20,261 nt of DNA from a virus. Positions within the stretch are counted from its first letter, which is position 1. Each line of letters opens with the position of its first letter. The DNA lies in the IMG/VR virus record IMGVR_UViG_3300025154_000418, positions 1-20,261 of that record; one strand, given 5' to 3'. The notes under the pieces were generated by a model, which did not search any database, was not told where the DNA came from, and saw only the letters and a program-made list of their open reading frames with translations. Positions 6,992-15,138 of this stretch are shown in pieces. The position numbers were made by a program, and so were the translations under genes.

Positions 6992-8206
6992 CTAAAACAA
7001 ACTCTTTACCTGTATAATCATTCCGTCCTGACTAACAATTTCTTCATCCAAACTCTTACACCAAATCTTAATGCTACCTAAATTATTACCCTTAATTTCA
7101 CAAGTATTATTAACTGCATTTTGTGATGTAATAACCGCTAATGAAGTTGGTAAATTATCAATCCCTGTTAACCAGAAAGATGATTCTTTAACTATAGATA
7201 AACCATTATTTTTGAATACTGCTAAATATTCTTTAGTATAAGTTTTAATTATTGATGTACTACCACTAATTTCAACTGTTTTATTCTCAATAGAAACTTC
7301 CACAATTTCAACATTAATCTCATCCATTACACTAAGATCATTTTCCATTTTACAACTAAATACAACATTTCCAACATCTAAAATTGTCACAACTCCTGTA
7401 ATTGAATTTATAGTTGCTTTAGCAATATTACTACTACTAAACAACAAATTAGGCATAGGAGAAGCAATTATTCCATCTATTTTTACTTGTGCATTAATTG
7501 TTAATTGATCATTTTCATTGACTTGAATTAAATCTCCATTTAAAATAGTAAGAGAATAAGATGGAATTATTTGCTCAACTTCACTATATACCATCTTAAT
7601 CAACAATAAACCATTCACAGTAATATCATTAATGTCCGTAACCGTATAATTCCTCAATCCAATTTTGAACACGTAGTTCATTGGAATTTGCCTAGTAATA
7701 GATGTATTGCTTATTTGTATTGCGACTTCTGAATCTAAAGTTGATATTATTTTTTGTTCATCTAGGGAGATTGAGCCTTTTGAGATTATGCATGGGATAG
7801 AGTGGAGGGTTGAGGTTGAGTCATAGAATTGGAGGGTGTTATTACATCTCTCAATAATACAAGAACTAGTTGGAGATTCTATTGTTCCTCCGTCAGTACA
7901 TATCCAATATGAATCATTAAATTTATATATGTCTCCTATTAATGTCGAGACACTACTATCTTTAAAAATAACTTTTCTAAAATCATTTGATACACTAGTT
8001 TTTAGTTTTAATTCATATGGTGTATCTAATCTTACAATTATTTCTTCATATAAACCTGTTGTATTATTCATTTTCTGAATCGTATAAATATTAGATGCAT
8101 TTTCGAATTGATCATCTACCATAGCTTGTAAATCATCCCAATACATTTCCTTTGGAGATGATGGAGCAATAGTTAAATAAGCATTATAATATTTAAGTGT
8201 TATGAT
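6992..8206 (-). CDS. head-closure (stopper)-like protein with C-terminal bacterial Ig-like domains; probable ATC start
   Basis: 404 residues with the start I prefer, or 384 from ATG 8146. The first about 215 residues look like a neck connector: EMYWDDLQAMVDDQF, then beta segments including GLRNYTVTDINDITVNGLLL. Residues about 218-310 resemble a Big_2 Ig-like domain (ILNGDLIQVNENDQLTINAQ; SSNIAKATINSITGVVTIL). A second Ig-like domain follows to the end. The ATG at 8146 has AAAGGA only one base away. A much better site, AAAGGAG (8214-8220), sits 7 bases before an in-frame ATC at 8204-8206. The frame from there (ITLKYYNAYLTIAPSSPKE) reads like protein. The ribosome binding site lies inside the inverted repeat 8154-8217. 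The Ig domains may be displayed on the virion surface at the neck. Confidence 0.7.
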   Translation of the reverse strand: MITLKYYNAYLTIAPSSPKEMYWDDLQAMVDDQFENASNIYTIQKMNNTTGLYEEIIVRLDTPYELKLKTSVSNDFRKVIFKDSSVSTLIGDIYKFNDSYWICTDGGTIESPTSSCIIERCNNTLQFYDSTSTLHSIPCIISKGSISLDEQKIISTLDSEVAIQISNTSITRQIPMNYVFKIGLRNYTVTDINDITVNGLLLIKMVYSEVEQIIPSYSLTILNGDLIQVNENDQLTINAQVKIDGIIASPMPNLLFSSSNIAKATINSITGVVTILDVGNVVFSCKMENDLSVMDEINVEIVEVSIENKTVEISGSTSIIKTYTKEYLAVFKNNGLSIVKESSFWLTGIDNLPTSLAVITSQNAVNNTCEIKGNNLGSIKIWCKSLDEEIVSQDGMIIQVKSLF

Positions 8207-8217
8207 CCATCATCTCC
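8154..8217 (-). promoter_or_regulatory. 12-bp inverted repeat covering a ribosome binding site
   Basis: GGAGATGATGGA (8154-8165) and TCCATCATCTCC (8206-8217) are perfect complements with a 40-base loop. On the minus-strand RNA the upstream arm contains the Shine-Dalgarno core GGAG of the stopper-like gene. The downstream arm lies within the extended reading frame, encoding part of APSSP. If it folds, it would hide the ribosome binding site. Confidence 0.55.
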
Positions 8218-8227
8218 TTTATTGCTA

Positions 8228-8680
8228 TTAGGCATAATTACCACTGTTCCAAGATTCCCAATTAATATTTTTTAAACTATAAACTGTCGTTGTTTGATTT
8301 ATCCGTTCAATTAAGATATTCTGAACATCAATTTTTGCTTTTAAATTATTAGCATTTGAATACATTTTAAAGTCCGTATCGCTCAAGAAATTCTGAAGCT
8401 GTGTCACATCTAGTATTTTAGTAGTCATCCATTCAATTACAGTTAAATCACTTAGAATAACTTTTTCAGATAATGTTAAAGTAGGTGTAAAAGTGCTTGT
8501 TACTAAATCTACATCCTCTAAATTCTGTTTGCATTCATAAAACTTAGGTATAGACTTAACCACATACCCACCCATCAATACTTTAAAATCATCTATAGAA
8601 ATATTATATAATTGATCTAATTTATAATCTCTAAAACTAAGAACTGCCAAGTCTATTATCTCATCAAATGAAGTTCCAAT
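8228..8680 (-). CDS. head-tail connector / adaptor protein, ATT start
   Basis: 150 residues from ATT 8680, or 140 from TTG 8650. The TTG has no ribosome binding site. The ATT is preceded by AAAGGGTGTGAT, a near-consensus site 4 bases away, and an in-frame TAA at 8681-8683 excludes anything further upstream. The ten added residues (GTSFDEIID before LAVLSF) complete the amphipathic first helix expected of this connector type. The rest, DYKLDQLYNISIDDFKVLMG, SEKVILSDLTVIEWMT and LSDTDFKMYSNANNLKAK, is helical and typical of phage adaptor proteins that sit on the portal. It lies 14 bases from the previous gene's stop, two genes after the major capsid gene, as expected for an adaptor. Confidence 0.75.
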   Translation of the reverse strand: MGTSFDEIIDLAVLSFRDYKLDQLYNISIDDFKVLMGGYVVKSIPKFYECKQNLEDVDLVTSTFTPTLTLSEKVILSDLTVIEWMTTKILDVTQLQNFLSDTDFKMYSNANNLKAKIDVQNILIERINQTTTVYSLKNINWESWNSGNYA

Positions 8681-12119: not shown

Positions 12120-13619
12120 TTAAATTTTGTCCCAAAGACTTTTAGATTCTGTCTTATTATTTTCATTTACAAAAGGTAATCCAACTTTCATAATTCCATC
12201 ATTGTTAGTTTTACCTTTTGAAAAACTAAATGCTTCTGCCTTAACTTTATTTACCCAAATATTAAGATCACTTGCACAAAAATTCTTAGCATCTTCACGC
12301 AATTCTTCCATTTGTTCTTTTGGCATAGATTCCATAACTTCTGTAAGTGTATATTCAATTACAGACAACATTTCTTTTTCTTCAATGTCTGATTTGAATT
12401 TTTTAAGTTGCTCATTTTCTGACATATAAATAGCCATTTGATCTTCAGAAGTAGACATTTTAGCAGTCATTTCAGACATTTGTACTTCTAGTGCAGAATA
12501 TTTATTGTACATTTCTTCATATTTTTCAGACATATCTGTATATTTTGCTTGAAAATTATCTTCATCTTCTTTGGGAATAACTTCTTCTGCCATAGTTTCT
12601 TCAGTCATTTTTTCTTCAAGTACAACCTCTTCAGCCATTTGTTCTTTGCTTTCTTCTGCTAATACTTTATCAGTTTCAGCTTGTTTATCAGCAAGTTCTG
12701 CTTGTGCTACTGCTTCCACGTTAGCATCTGCTCCCATTTCTTCTTGCTGTTCATTTTCTATAACTTCAAGTTTTTCAATTTCTTCTGTAGGCACTATTTC
12801 TTCCTCCTTCTTTACTTCTTCAAACTTTTCTGTTTGTGGATTAATTATGTTTTCAGCCCATTCTAAAGATTCAAACCCTCCTAAAAGATATTGTGCGGTT
12901 TCAGTTTTTGTCTTAGCTGAAAACTTTATTATGTTATGCAACAAATCTAAACTTACAAATTCATTATTTATTAATTGATTTGCAATGCCTACATTTACAG
13001 CAGTAGCACCTTTGGGATTGTTTTGTTTAAGAAAAATTCCTTTTTCTGCATTTTGTTTGACAATAGATGGTATTTTAAAATCATACATAAGGTGTTCAAT
13101 CTCTTCTTTAACCTTAGAAAAAGATAAAACTTCTGCTCTCGCGTTCTCAATGGCCGGAGTAGTGGAAATTAAGGTTATACCACTAAATATAAACGATTCA
13201 ATTGAATTATTGTCACCTGATTCTACAACTATAATTTCCATACTAAGATTTTGTATTTGATCCCTATCTAAAACAAAAGCGACATCTTTTGCGTATCTAC
13301 ACCATATAATTCCATCTGCACAAAGCCATCGTTTACCTTCTTCATCTTTTTCATAAAAAATATCATTATCGCATAAAACCACGCCAACTGGAACTTCATC
13401 TAATTCGTGTCCCATTAATTGCTGACTATAACGATTGTATTTGGCTACTACTGGTTTTCCTATTAAAGTTGGTCTTGCATTTTCAATAGCTGTCCAAGGT
13501 ATAGGTTTTTCATGTTGATTATCTCCTTCTGATACAATCCAAAGACGCACTTTCATAAGTTCACTATTAGAAATATCCATTAAATCAAATTTATTTATTG
13601 CAAATGATAATTTATTCAT
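12120..13619 (-). CDS. prohead protease fused to scaffold, with an embedded conserved domain
   Basis: 499 residues. Residues about 1-168 look like a prohead maturation protease of the S78/XkdF kind: LIGKPVVAKYNRYSQQLMGHE with candidate catalytic H71, and NLSMEI with candidate S126. Residues about 182-259 (IPSIVKQNAEKGIF; VGIANQLINNEFVSLDLL; LLGGFESLEWAENII) resemble a small domain found inserted in phage protease and portal-type proteins. Residues 262-350 are a Glu-rich linker. Residues about 355-430 are a strong coiled coil, the likely scaffold, followed by a C-terminal capsid-binding-like tail. The ATG overlaps the end of the homing endonuclease gene by 8 bases, and its AAGGAGGTGA site lies inside that gene. 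The scaffold should be cut during maturation. Confidence 0.8.
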   Translation of the reverse strand: MNKLSFAINKFDLMDISNSELMKVRLWIVSEGDNQHEKPIPWTAIENARPTLIGKPVVAKYNRYSQQLMGHELDEVPVGVVLCDNDIFYEKDEEGKRWLCADGIIWCRYAKDVAFVLDRDQIQNLSMEIIVVESGDNNSIESFIFSGITLISTTPAIENARAEVLSFSKVKEEIEHLMYDFKIPSIVKQNAEKGIFLKQNNPKGATAVNVGIANQLINNEFVSLDLLHNIIKFSAKTKTETAQYLLGGFESLEWAENIINPQTEKFEEVKKEEEIVPTEEIEKLEVIENEQQEEMGADANVEAVAQAELADKQAETDKVLAEESKEQMAEEVVLEEKMTEETMAEEVIPKEDEDNFQAKYTDMSEKYEEMYNKYSALEVQMSEMTAKMSTSEDQMAIYMSENEQLKKFKSDIEEKEMLSVIEYTLTEVMESMPKEQMEELREDAKNFCASDLNIWVNKVKAEAFSFSKGKTNNDGIMKVGLPFVNENNKTESKSLWDKI

Positions 13620-15069
13620 TTTTCACCTCCTTTAAATTTATATTAAGTTTATTAATAAAAAAAGAAGTTAATTTATTTTCAACTCCTTTAAAACCATCTT
13701 TGATATCTTCTGGATATAAATCTATATAATAATATTCATTATCATGATAAAATTCATTTTTTCGATGTGTTTTGTTAACGTATGTATTTATGAAGTCTGA
13801 AGTATTTGTTGGATAATATAAACCAAAATATTCAATAATGATTTTAATATTATTAAATATAAGATAATAATCTGGAATATATGATTCATTATATTTAATA
13901 TTAAATAATTTATCTTTTCTAGGATATTTTCTAATATCAAATTTTAAATTTTTGATAAAATTATATACTGACATTTCTTCCAAACTATCAAATCTCTGGT
14001 TATCAATTAGTTTTATTTGATTATAGTCTAGAGCAATGTTTTTCCACTTAAAATAATCACAGAATAACTCTTTGTATCCGTACATCCTAAATGCTAATAT
14101 ATTAAAATAATTACATATTGCTTCTCTTGGTAACAATATAACATCTTTTTCTTGTTTAATTATATTATTAGCAATTAAACTCTTAATACCTTCTCTAATC
14201 ATCCAATATACATTATATTTGTTTTCCCAAAATTTATTAGGTACTTGAACCCCAAGTTCCCAAGGATGTATTTTGTATTGCGGAAAAACATATTGTATAA
14301 ATTCATAATAATGTTTAAAGTTATTGCTAATACTTCTATCTAGTCTTGATTCTCTGAATAAATCTCTGAAACTAATAAGTGATATTAACTCATTTCTTGA
14401 TAGATATTTATTATTAATCTTTAACCAATATTTAAAAAATAATTTTGTATGTTCTTTAGAATATACAGTAACATTAATATTTTTATTAGAAAGTGTTTGC
14501 TTGTAACACGCAAATGCAGTGCTTAAGTATTTAATATCATATATTAAATATAAACGTTTTAAATTCAATAAGTCATTTTCTCTTAATAAATTATTTATAA
14601 ACAAATAATTTATTAAAAATTTATTGTTTTGCATTGGATATTTTTCTAAAAACTGCGTAATACAACTTTCCAAATCATTATTATTATAAAGACTAATTAA
14701 ATAATCTTTCTTATCTTTAGAAAAATAGGTTTTAGTTTTTGTGCCATTTTGTTTTCTTCTTTCGGACTCCCTACTTTTAGATTGATGTAAATTAAATTTA
14801 TCACGCATCCAACTATATTCGCTCTTTGTTAAACCAATAAATATCTTAGATAAATCTTCAAAACTACTATTTGGGTATAACTCTATAAACAACTTTGTTT
14901 CTTCGTCTGACCATTGTCTACCCCTAATTTTGTGCCATTTGTTTTTCCCTAATATATATCGAATACTTTCGATACTTCTTTGAGGTAGATATAATCTTTG
15001 TATTTCTTCGTTTGTTTTGTCTAAATTATTTTTGACAATCTCTATTTCTTTAGCAGCCCATTTGCTCAT
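13612..15069 (-). CDS. free-standing homing endonuclease, PD-(D/E)XK/EDxHD-like with Myb/SANT repeats
   Basis: 485 residues from ATG 15069 (MSKWAAKEIE), which has a perfect AAGGAGG site 5-6 bases upstream. The frame is open to 15132, but that longer start has no ribosome binding site. The N-terminus has two Myb/SANT-like helix-turn-helix repeats (about 2-45 and 50-95: RQWSDEETKLFIELYP). The middle is helical and basic. The C-terminus carries a restriction-like nuclease core: SLEEMSVYNFI (E364/E365), YIPDYYLIF (D400), KIIIEYFGLYYP (E413), then THRKNEFYHDN and YYYIDLYPEDI. This recalls the EDxHD homing endonucleases of Bacillus phages such as I-Bth0305I. It sits between portal and protease genes, with hairpins in its leader, and its last codons read through the next gene's ribosome binding site. 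Confidence 0.75.
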   Translation of the reverse strand: MSKWAAKEIEIVKNNLDKTNEEIQRLYLPQRSIESIRYILGKNKWHKIRGRQWSDEETKLFIELYPNSSFEDLSKIFIGLTKSEYSWMRDKFNLHQSKSRESERRKQNGTKTKTYFSKDKKDYLISLYNNNDLESCITQFLEKYPMQNNKFLINYLFINNLLRENDLLNLKRLYLIYDIKYLSTAFACYKQTLSNKNINVTVYSKEHTKLFFKYWLKINNKYLSRNELISLISFRDLFRESRLDRSISNNFKHYYEFIQYVFPQYKIHPWELGVQVPNKFWENKYNVYWMIREGIKSLIANNIIKQEKDVILLPREAICNYFNILAFRMYGYKELFCDYFKWKNIALDYNQIKLIDNQRFDSLEEMSVYNFIKNLKFDIRKYPRKDKLFNIKYNESYIPDYYLIFNNIKIIIEYFGLYYPTNTSDFINTYVNKTHRKNEFYHDNEYYYIDLYPEDIKDGFKGVENKLTSFFINKLNINLKEVKNE

Positions 15070-15079
15070 TATTTCCTCC

Positions 15080-15100
15080 TTATCTAAAATTAAAAGATAA
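15080..15100 (-). promoter_or_regulatory. hairpin abutting the homing endonuclease ribosome binding site
   Basis: TTATCT and AGATAA pair around a 9-base loop. On the minus-strand RNA the 3' arm ends directly at GGAGG, taking the two As of AAGGAGG into the stem. Folding should reduce translation of the endonuclease. Confidence 0.5.
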
Positions 15101-15101
15101 A

Positions 15102-15138
15102 GAGGATAGCGGTGTGTCTCACGACATGACATATCCTC
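15102..15138 (-). terminator. hairpin in the homing endonuclease leader, possible terminator
   Basis: GAGGATA and TATCCTC pair (7 bp), with an inner TGTC/GACA pairing. On the minus strand the stem is followed by TTTATCTTTTAATTTT. It lies between the stop codon at 15147 and the endonuclease start, so it may attenuate transcription into the endonuclease and head genes. Confidence 0.5.

Follow-up and report, generated by a model that had tools for sequence, protein, structure and literature searches.

What do we already know about hidden ribosome binding sites in phages?

It is known that phages can bury the ribosome binding site of a gene in an RNA hairpin, and such structures are described for T4 e, soc, 39, 25, 26, I-TevI and segB, as well as for mobE of Aeh1 (PMC2988022), with 25 and 26 appearing as base plate genes in the reference list of the same paper. 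In the T4 endonuclease genes the hairpins form on transcripts of the early and middle classes, and an internal late promoter bypasses them (PMC2988022). In MS2, long-distance pairs are broken as the ribosome crosses the coat gene (PMC9894550). In addition, AUA and AUU start codons behind a strong Shine–Dalgarno sequence (SD) are described for S. aureus infC, ccpN and cvfC1 (PMC13009471), and clostridia are able to use an engineered AUU start (PMC11040787).

Hairpins that hide ribosome binding sites are thus not new in themselves, and what we regard as new, and notable, is the lineage-wide co-adaptation of such a hairpin at one gene, a head-tail stopper-like gene of tailed phages. Our search of the literature on such control in phages, on head-tail genes and on rare start codons, whose scope took in few of the subscription papers, showed no report of this element among the titles and abstracts listed. 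It is a question of current interest how phages obtain connector proteins in small numbers and capsid proteins in hundreds from the same late mRNAs, and here we appear to have a gene-linked RNA element that is kept across strongly diverged phages, some of them, the Enterocloster bolteae phages, in culture.

Where does the gene lie, and what does it encode?

The window, by which we mean the whole stretch of 20,261 nucleotides that was analysed (IMG/VR record IMGVR_UViG_3300025154_000418), is a virus contig with tailed-phage head and tail genes, and it carries the stopper-like gene on its minus strand (Table 1). The locus holds terminase, portal, probable capsid, adaptor-like, stopper-like, virion protein and tail tube-like genes; the capsid gene is named by position, as is the 'adaptor', and the other names rest on position together with PMBT24, in which the stopper-like gene is flanked by a named major capsid protein on one side and a major tail protein on the other. 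The adaptor-like gene matches PHROG 3853 from residue 2 and, in the window, is directly followed by the stopper-like gene, whose position between adaptor and tail genes fits a head-tail stopper; in the Enterocloster phages the two are separated by a small gene. Elsewhere in the window, at 13612-15132 (minus strand), the listed ATG seems too early, and a later in-frame ATG (MSKWAAKE) carries a strong SD.

Table 1. Features of the stopper-like gene and its surroundings, in window coordinates
Feature	Position	Strand	Remarks
Head-tail stopper-like gene	6992..8203	-	403 codons; start most likely ATA 8203-8201
Domains of the stopper-like gene	residues ~17-122, then Ig-like domains		first domain stopper-like; basis, fold and Ig-like matches
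ATC codon, start proposed earlier	8204..8206	-	less likely start
ATG of the short MYWDD frame	8144..8146	-	not a conserved start
Shine–Dalgarno AAAGGAG	8214..8220	-	10 nt before ATA, 7 nt before ATC
Hairpin 5' arm, GGAGATGATGGA	8206..8217	-	contains SD core
Hairpin 3' arm, TCCATCATCTCC	8154..8165	-	codons 13-17 of the stopper gene, Ala-Pro-Ser-Ser-Pro
ATGATG mini-frame	8193..8213	-	six codons, then TAA; probably arises from the stem as a by-product
Upstream head-tail adaptor-like gene	8228..8680	-	start ATT 8680; ends 24 nt before ATA 8203

Pfam returned nothing at E up to 0.1 for either the stopper or the adaptor, and the protein's likely identity comes from structure prediction. The N-terminal 202 residues were modelled with a mean pLDDT of 73.7 and a pTM of 0.68, and VIA-align matched the N-domain to XkdH (Z 9.8), the Pam3 neck (9.3), the phage 812 stopper (9.2) and the lambda neck (8.8); among the 25 best rows, 22 bore the names of phage neck, connector, stopper or phage-element proteins, at Z 9.8-7.4, a range in which values of 7-8 may arise by chance. 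Foldseek alone gave no match at E <0.001 for the N-domain, its top row being a T1 stopper-tail terminator entry. These stopper matches came from the N-domain alone and not from the full protein, for which S-layer, cadherin, Ig-like and other chains were among the 50 matches listed. On this modelling, the N-terminal domain is predicted to fold like head-tail stoppers. Residues 1-12, which are encoded by the hairpin region, have a pLDDT <50. The stoppers of known phages are hexameric.

Which codon starts the gene?

Read along the minus strand, AAAGGAG (duplex with the anti-SD, -8.6 kcal/mol) is followed by ATGATGG and then, in frame, by ATC, ATA, ACA and CTT. An earlier note on this sequence had argued for a non-canonical start upstream of ATG 8146, and placed it at the ATC. 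Its reading of the spacing is accurate, both for the seven bases between AAAGGAG and the ATC and for the AAAGGA found only one base before ATG 8146, and an upstream, non-canonical start is what the relatives point to as well, albeit one codon further on. The position of the ATC is ATC in the window, L003, L018 and L019 and GCA in L023/L024, where the next codon is ATG. That next codon, ATA 8203 in the window, is ATG in L023/L024 and in the Enterocloster phages and TTG in L020, and since relatives carry ATG or TTG at the same codon we take ATA 8203 as the homologous and most likely start, the ATC being less likely. The stopper frame of the window has no usable ATG, GTG or TTG at this position. 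The close relatives L003, L018 and L019 have an SD and both hairpin arms identical to those of the window, and in L003 the first in-frame ATG, GTG or TTG comes 50 codons after the ATA (the first ATG 91 codons on), so that a canonical start there would delete the conserved N-terminus.

ATG 8146 itself was considered and rejected as a start, as it is not kept in relatives: ATA stands in its place in L003, L018, L019 and L023/L024, and none of the relatives examined starts at MYWDD.

The suggestion that two genes in a row have non-canonical starts is supported as well. ATT 8680 of the adaptor-like gene directly follows an in-frame TAA and aligns with M1 of relatives, ahead of T-S-F-D; its position is ATG in L025, L026, L062, L064, L065, L067, L014 and L015 (ATG one to three codons earlier in L060, L061 and L063; GTG in L003). 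The ATT is kept in L021-L024, with no canonical codon for 34-35 codons in L022-L024 and a TTG at codon 10 in the window and L021. Gene callers will mis-start such genes, given that both connector genes of the window are without ATG, GTG or TTG at the homologous start.

Other contigs offer seemingly similar cases. In L077-L085 (contig G001, a 166 kb relative) several genes have a good SD with no ATG, GTG or TTG to serve and seem to start with ATA or ATT, for example at L078 (+) 4525, L078 (+) 10953, L079 (+) 15113, L082 5394-4924 (-) and L085 (+) 9060, and a resolvase-like frame of G001 (PHROG 190) has no ATG, GTG or TTG in the first 141 of its 157 codons. The minus strand of L086 (contig G004), at reverse-complement offset 8895, has a 257-codon frame with AAAGGAGG before an ATT and no ATG, GTG or TTG. 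A strict AUH-start rule for frames of at least 100 codons picked out 10 of 810, and the same rule applied to codons other than NTG and ATN picked out 4 of 810, in a count that covers eight relatives, seven only in part.

How were homologues sampled?

Homologues were collected from IMG/VR and phage records, down to ~20% identity. The working set of 22 excludes near-duplicates (among them L003, L018, L019, L024, L069, L040, L045, L047, L048, L068, L066 and L049), homologues cut by a contig end or partly matched (L006, L009, L013 and L027), and 13 with another or a very distant N-terminus (L004, L044, L052, L028, L005, L007, L008, L010 and L071-L075), which were tested singly and, with L076 added, as a 14-member group. 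It retains some related pairs and groups, namely L014/L015, L025 with L060 and L061, and the window with L023; L025 is the contig of L020. For cross-pairing, 16 representatives were hand-picked before any cross-pairing result, although after the folding and codon-shuffle results. A replication sample was drawn from 69 new loci found in two further scans, 68 of them with a homologue; two lacked a start and 36 were redundant (>70% identity in 108 nt), leaving 30, with starts chosen by rule. The replication is the cleaner test, because the hairpins were first spotted by eye. Non-redundant homologues are treated as independent throughout, with shared ancestry remaining. Two pattern scans of genome contigs confirmed no relatives among their matches.

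Is the hairpin more than a local accident?

In the window the core of the SD lies in one arm of a perfect 12-bp inverted repeat, much as the earlier note had it, and the other arm lies in the newly recognised N-terminal coding region; complementarity is still 93% over 15 nt. The minus strand of the window has four perfect 12-bp inverted repeats with loops of 3-60, whereas 200 dinucleotide shuffles average 0.30; one of the four has at least six G/C in the arm, and none of 200 shuffles gives such a repeat. Minimum-energy folding of the start region returns this hairpin, with the SD core paired, and the window pairs better than its synonymous recodings (p=0.03 for opening, 0.025 for duplex). At gathering thresholds, no Rfam family was found in the window. 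In the predicted fold, the AAAGGAG sits in a hairpin with codons of the stopper-like gene itself.

A minimum-energy hairpin recurs in L023, with letters that are partly different, and in L060, L026, L015, L014, L065, L067, L053 and L050, with letters that are wholly different. In many homologues the SD region is paired with codons ~6-20 in a stem of entirely different letters, such as AGAAGGAGT/ACTCCTTCT in L026, GGGAGTT/AACTCCC in L053, AGGGGGAT/ATCCCCCT in L050 and TTGGTGATT/AATTACCAA in L067, and in Enterocloster phage CB473P1 the stem runs to 14 pairs, including G-U pairs. The median leader:CDS duplex is -15.6 kcal/mol in the 22 homologues versus -7.6 kcal/mol at the starts of 153 other genes in these loci (p=4e-9), and opening the SD costs 6.4 versus 2.4 (p=3e-7); the replication medians for the duplex are -13.7 and -7.8 (p=1e-11). 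As anecdotal values from which no conclusion is drawn, lambda FII has a duplex energy of -12.1 and HK97 head closure one of -17.7, the latter the lowest of the eight HK97 genes tested and the former not the lowest of its own.

RNAalifold, run on a MAFFT alignment of 14 leaders, gave no consensus structure and no pair, and because the stems differ in register we turned to codon-shuffle and cross-pairing tests. These bear on an alternative, which is that the hairpin is a by-product of the protein: Ser/Thr-Pro near residue 17, encoded as UCUCC or ACUCC, complements any SD, and a hairpin would follow without selection. The conserved Ser/Thr-Pro does supply part of the anti-SD on its own and, by eye, is widely kept at that place, and many homologues pair no more clearly than their synonymous recodings (no clear gain on either measure in L062, L043, L016, L046, L061, L025, L041, L039, L064 and L014; a gain on opening only in L051). 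Against this, when the first 26 codons were shuffled synonymously, so that the protein was preserved, the recodings still lost to the natural sequences as a group, with Fisher p=1e-6 for opening and 2e-5 for duplex in the 22 homologues versus 0.93 and 0.75 in the 153 controls, and with 2e-5 and 1e-4 in the replication versus 0.50 and 0.79 in 130 controls. Values of p<=0.1 were reached by 11/22 homologues and 13/153 controls for opening, and by 9/22 and 14/153 for duplex.

Cross-pairing argues in the same direction, since leaders favour their own CDS over those of homologues, many of which also code for [ST]P. For the 16 representatives the pairing value was -14.36 with the own CDS and -10.30 with homologues' CDS (p=5e-6, the lowest value that 200,000 permutations can give), the own CDS ranking first for eight of them; adding the 14 set-aside homologues (n=30) again gave p=5e-6, and those 14 alone, with their other or very distant N-termini, gave no group effect (p=0.17). 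In the replication the figures were -14.01 for own and -10.90 for permuted pairs (p=1e-5). Seven other gene positions in the loci of the first sample gave p from 0.04 to 0.94, the 0.04 belonging to the second gene downstream, and five neighbouring positions in the replication gave 0.10-0.95, but in that sample the gene just upstream of the stopper gave p=0.0002. The stems, moreover, extend past the SD into the spacer, and we therefore disfavour the by-product reading and consider it unlikely. The compensatory change that the earlier note proposed to look for in related phages is present, in that leader and coding arm are co-adapted and the pairing is kept with other letters, which suggests that selection in this lineage maintains the pairing and not the letters; this is part of the explanation to which the probability given below applies as a whole.

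The leader and the N-terminal codons seem to move together. In L005, L007, L008 and L010 the protein is 56-81% identical to that of the window over residues ~83-404, while the N-terminus and leader are wholly different and without the hairpin, and it is such homologues that make leader and N-terminal codons look like one travelling module. A third N-terminal type (TWWTDYQAR), again without the hairpin, is seen in L004, L044 and L052, with ATT/ATA in L044 where the other two have TTG.

The adaptor genes (n=50, including L024, which duplicates L023 but is read from a different start) point to a weaker own-pairing effect, partly confounded by conserved codons, with p=0.0008, 0.01, 0.06 and 0.24 for four choices of arm. 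Adaptor genes such as those of L025, L026, L060, L023, L050, L131 and L169 often have an SD hairpin of their own with the start codon in the loop; that of the window pairs weakly and starts with ATT instead of ATG. Extra ORFs of 111-126 codons, stop to stop, lie between the connector genes in L025, L026, L060 and L061 and run up to the start of the stopper gene, whose hairpin is clear in L026 and L060 and weaker in L025 and L061.

How might the hairpin be used?

We think, with a probability of roughly 0.68 for the explanation as a whole, that the hairpin throttles initiation on a low-copy stopper gene and is usually opened by the ribosome that ends the upstream gene. In the stopper mRNA, the SD and start region would pair with codons ~13-17 of the same gene; the stem hides them, and free initiation should therefore be rare. 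Lowered initiation would mean that a virion protein required in few copies is made sparingly from a late mRNA that would also yield capsid and tail proteins in abundance. In most homologues, a ribosome finishing the upstream gene would cover and open the 5' arm, a form of translational coupling, and the weak ATA and ATT starts of the window may throttle both connector genes further.

The upstream ORF ends within -29..+20 of the stopper start in 22/22 homologues and within -15..+20 in 29/30 replication homologues, which supports coupling without proving it, because a stop within -30..+20 is also found upstream of 91/153 control genes. The upstream partner varies (adaptor-like, a gene of ~80 aa in the Enterocloster phages, or inserted ORFs) and the arrangement stays. 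The leading edge of a ribosome lies ~15 nt from its P site, and with this value a terminating upstream ribosome would overlap the 5' arm in 20/22 homologues. The idea, raised when the hairpin was first noticed, that upstream translation opens it thus suits most of the homologues in geometry and not the window itself or L023, where the ribosome edge reaches -16 and -21 and the arm begins at -14. With the upstream stop slightly upstream of the arm, opening in the clade of the window would rely on other routes, which might be breathing with a nearby standby ribosome, reinitiation, or a following ribosome that arrives before refolding.

A trans factor, for example the stopper itself or a phage repressor, might instead lock or open the hairpin as an operator, and such control does exist, the MS2 coat protein being a repressor of replicase (PMC9894550). 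Stem letters, loop letters and arm positions vary among the homologues by eye, which is unusual for a protein site, and no conserved recognition sequence was seen by eye in stem or loop, so we rate an operator as improbable, on a par with the by-product. We give slightly less credence to timing of the T4 type, in which the full hairpin would silence long early transcripts and a late promoter inside it would give short mRNAs that lack the 5' arm. This is documented for T4 homing endonucleases with internal late promoters, and soc, e, 39, 25 and 26 of T4 have structures that hide the ribosome binding site (PMC2988022), but a search for sigma-70-like sites found none on the minus strand just before the 5' arm, the gene sits within a run of head and tail genes, and the 5' flanks of homologues often belong to different genes. 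Least probable is that the ATGATG mini-frame, noted earlier as a possible out-of-frame leader and indeed present, closed by a TAA in the same position, in the window, L003, L018 and L024, is the true start with a +1 shift into the stopper frame, or a regulatory leader: the SD is 0 nt from its first ATG and 3 nt from its second, and it is not seen by eye in distant homologues, both of which make a by-product of the stem more likely, the start position of L024 is taken by an in-frame ATG, and no slippery site was recognised.

Returning to the hairpin as a throttle, we would tentatively go further, at somewhat less than even odds, and propose that a large lineage of tailed phages sets connector copy number by hairpins between SD and own codons that are opened in proportion to upstream translation, with AUA/AUU starts as a second throttle and a flexible N-terminal tail whose main purpose would be to encode the RNA arm. 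This would apply to the stopper and, less strongly, to the gene before it.

How does the stopper element compare with known systems?

As a protein, the stopper resembles lambda FII, SPP1 gp16, XkdH and the phage 812 stopper in its predicted fold (~17-122) and in the place of its gene between capsid and tail genes; unlike known stoppers, it has C-terminal Ig-like domains and a low-confidence N-terminal tail whose codons hold the RNA arm. Its weak start codon behind a strong SD is reminiscent of S. aureus infC, ccpN and cvfC1, although those are host genes, and here we have two neighbouring phage connector genes with starts predicted from sequence. A parallel in mechanism would be the MS2 coat and replicase genes, where a hidden start is opened by a ribosome on the upstream gene (PMC9894550), as we suppose for the stopper; unlike in MS2, the stopper leader pairs with the N-terminal coding region of the same gene, and the stop of the upstream gene adjoins the stem. 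Finally, as in the T4 and Aeh1 hairpins, RNA structure occupies a phage gene's ribosome binding site, with low initiation as the expected outcome (PMC2988022), whereas, unlike the hairpins of the T4 endonuclease genes, the stopper hairpin has no visible internal late promoter, stands among structural neighbours and carries its 3' arm in the codons of the very gene that it would control.
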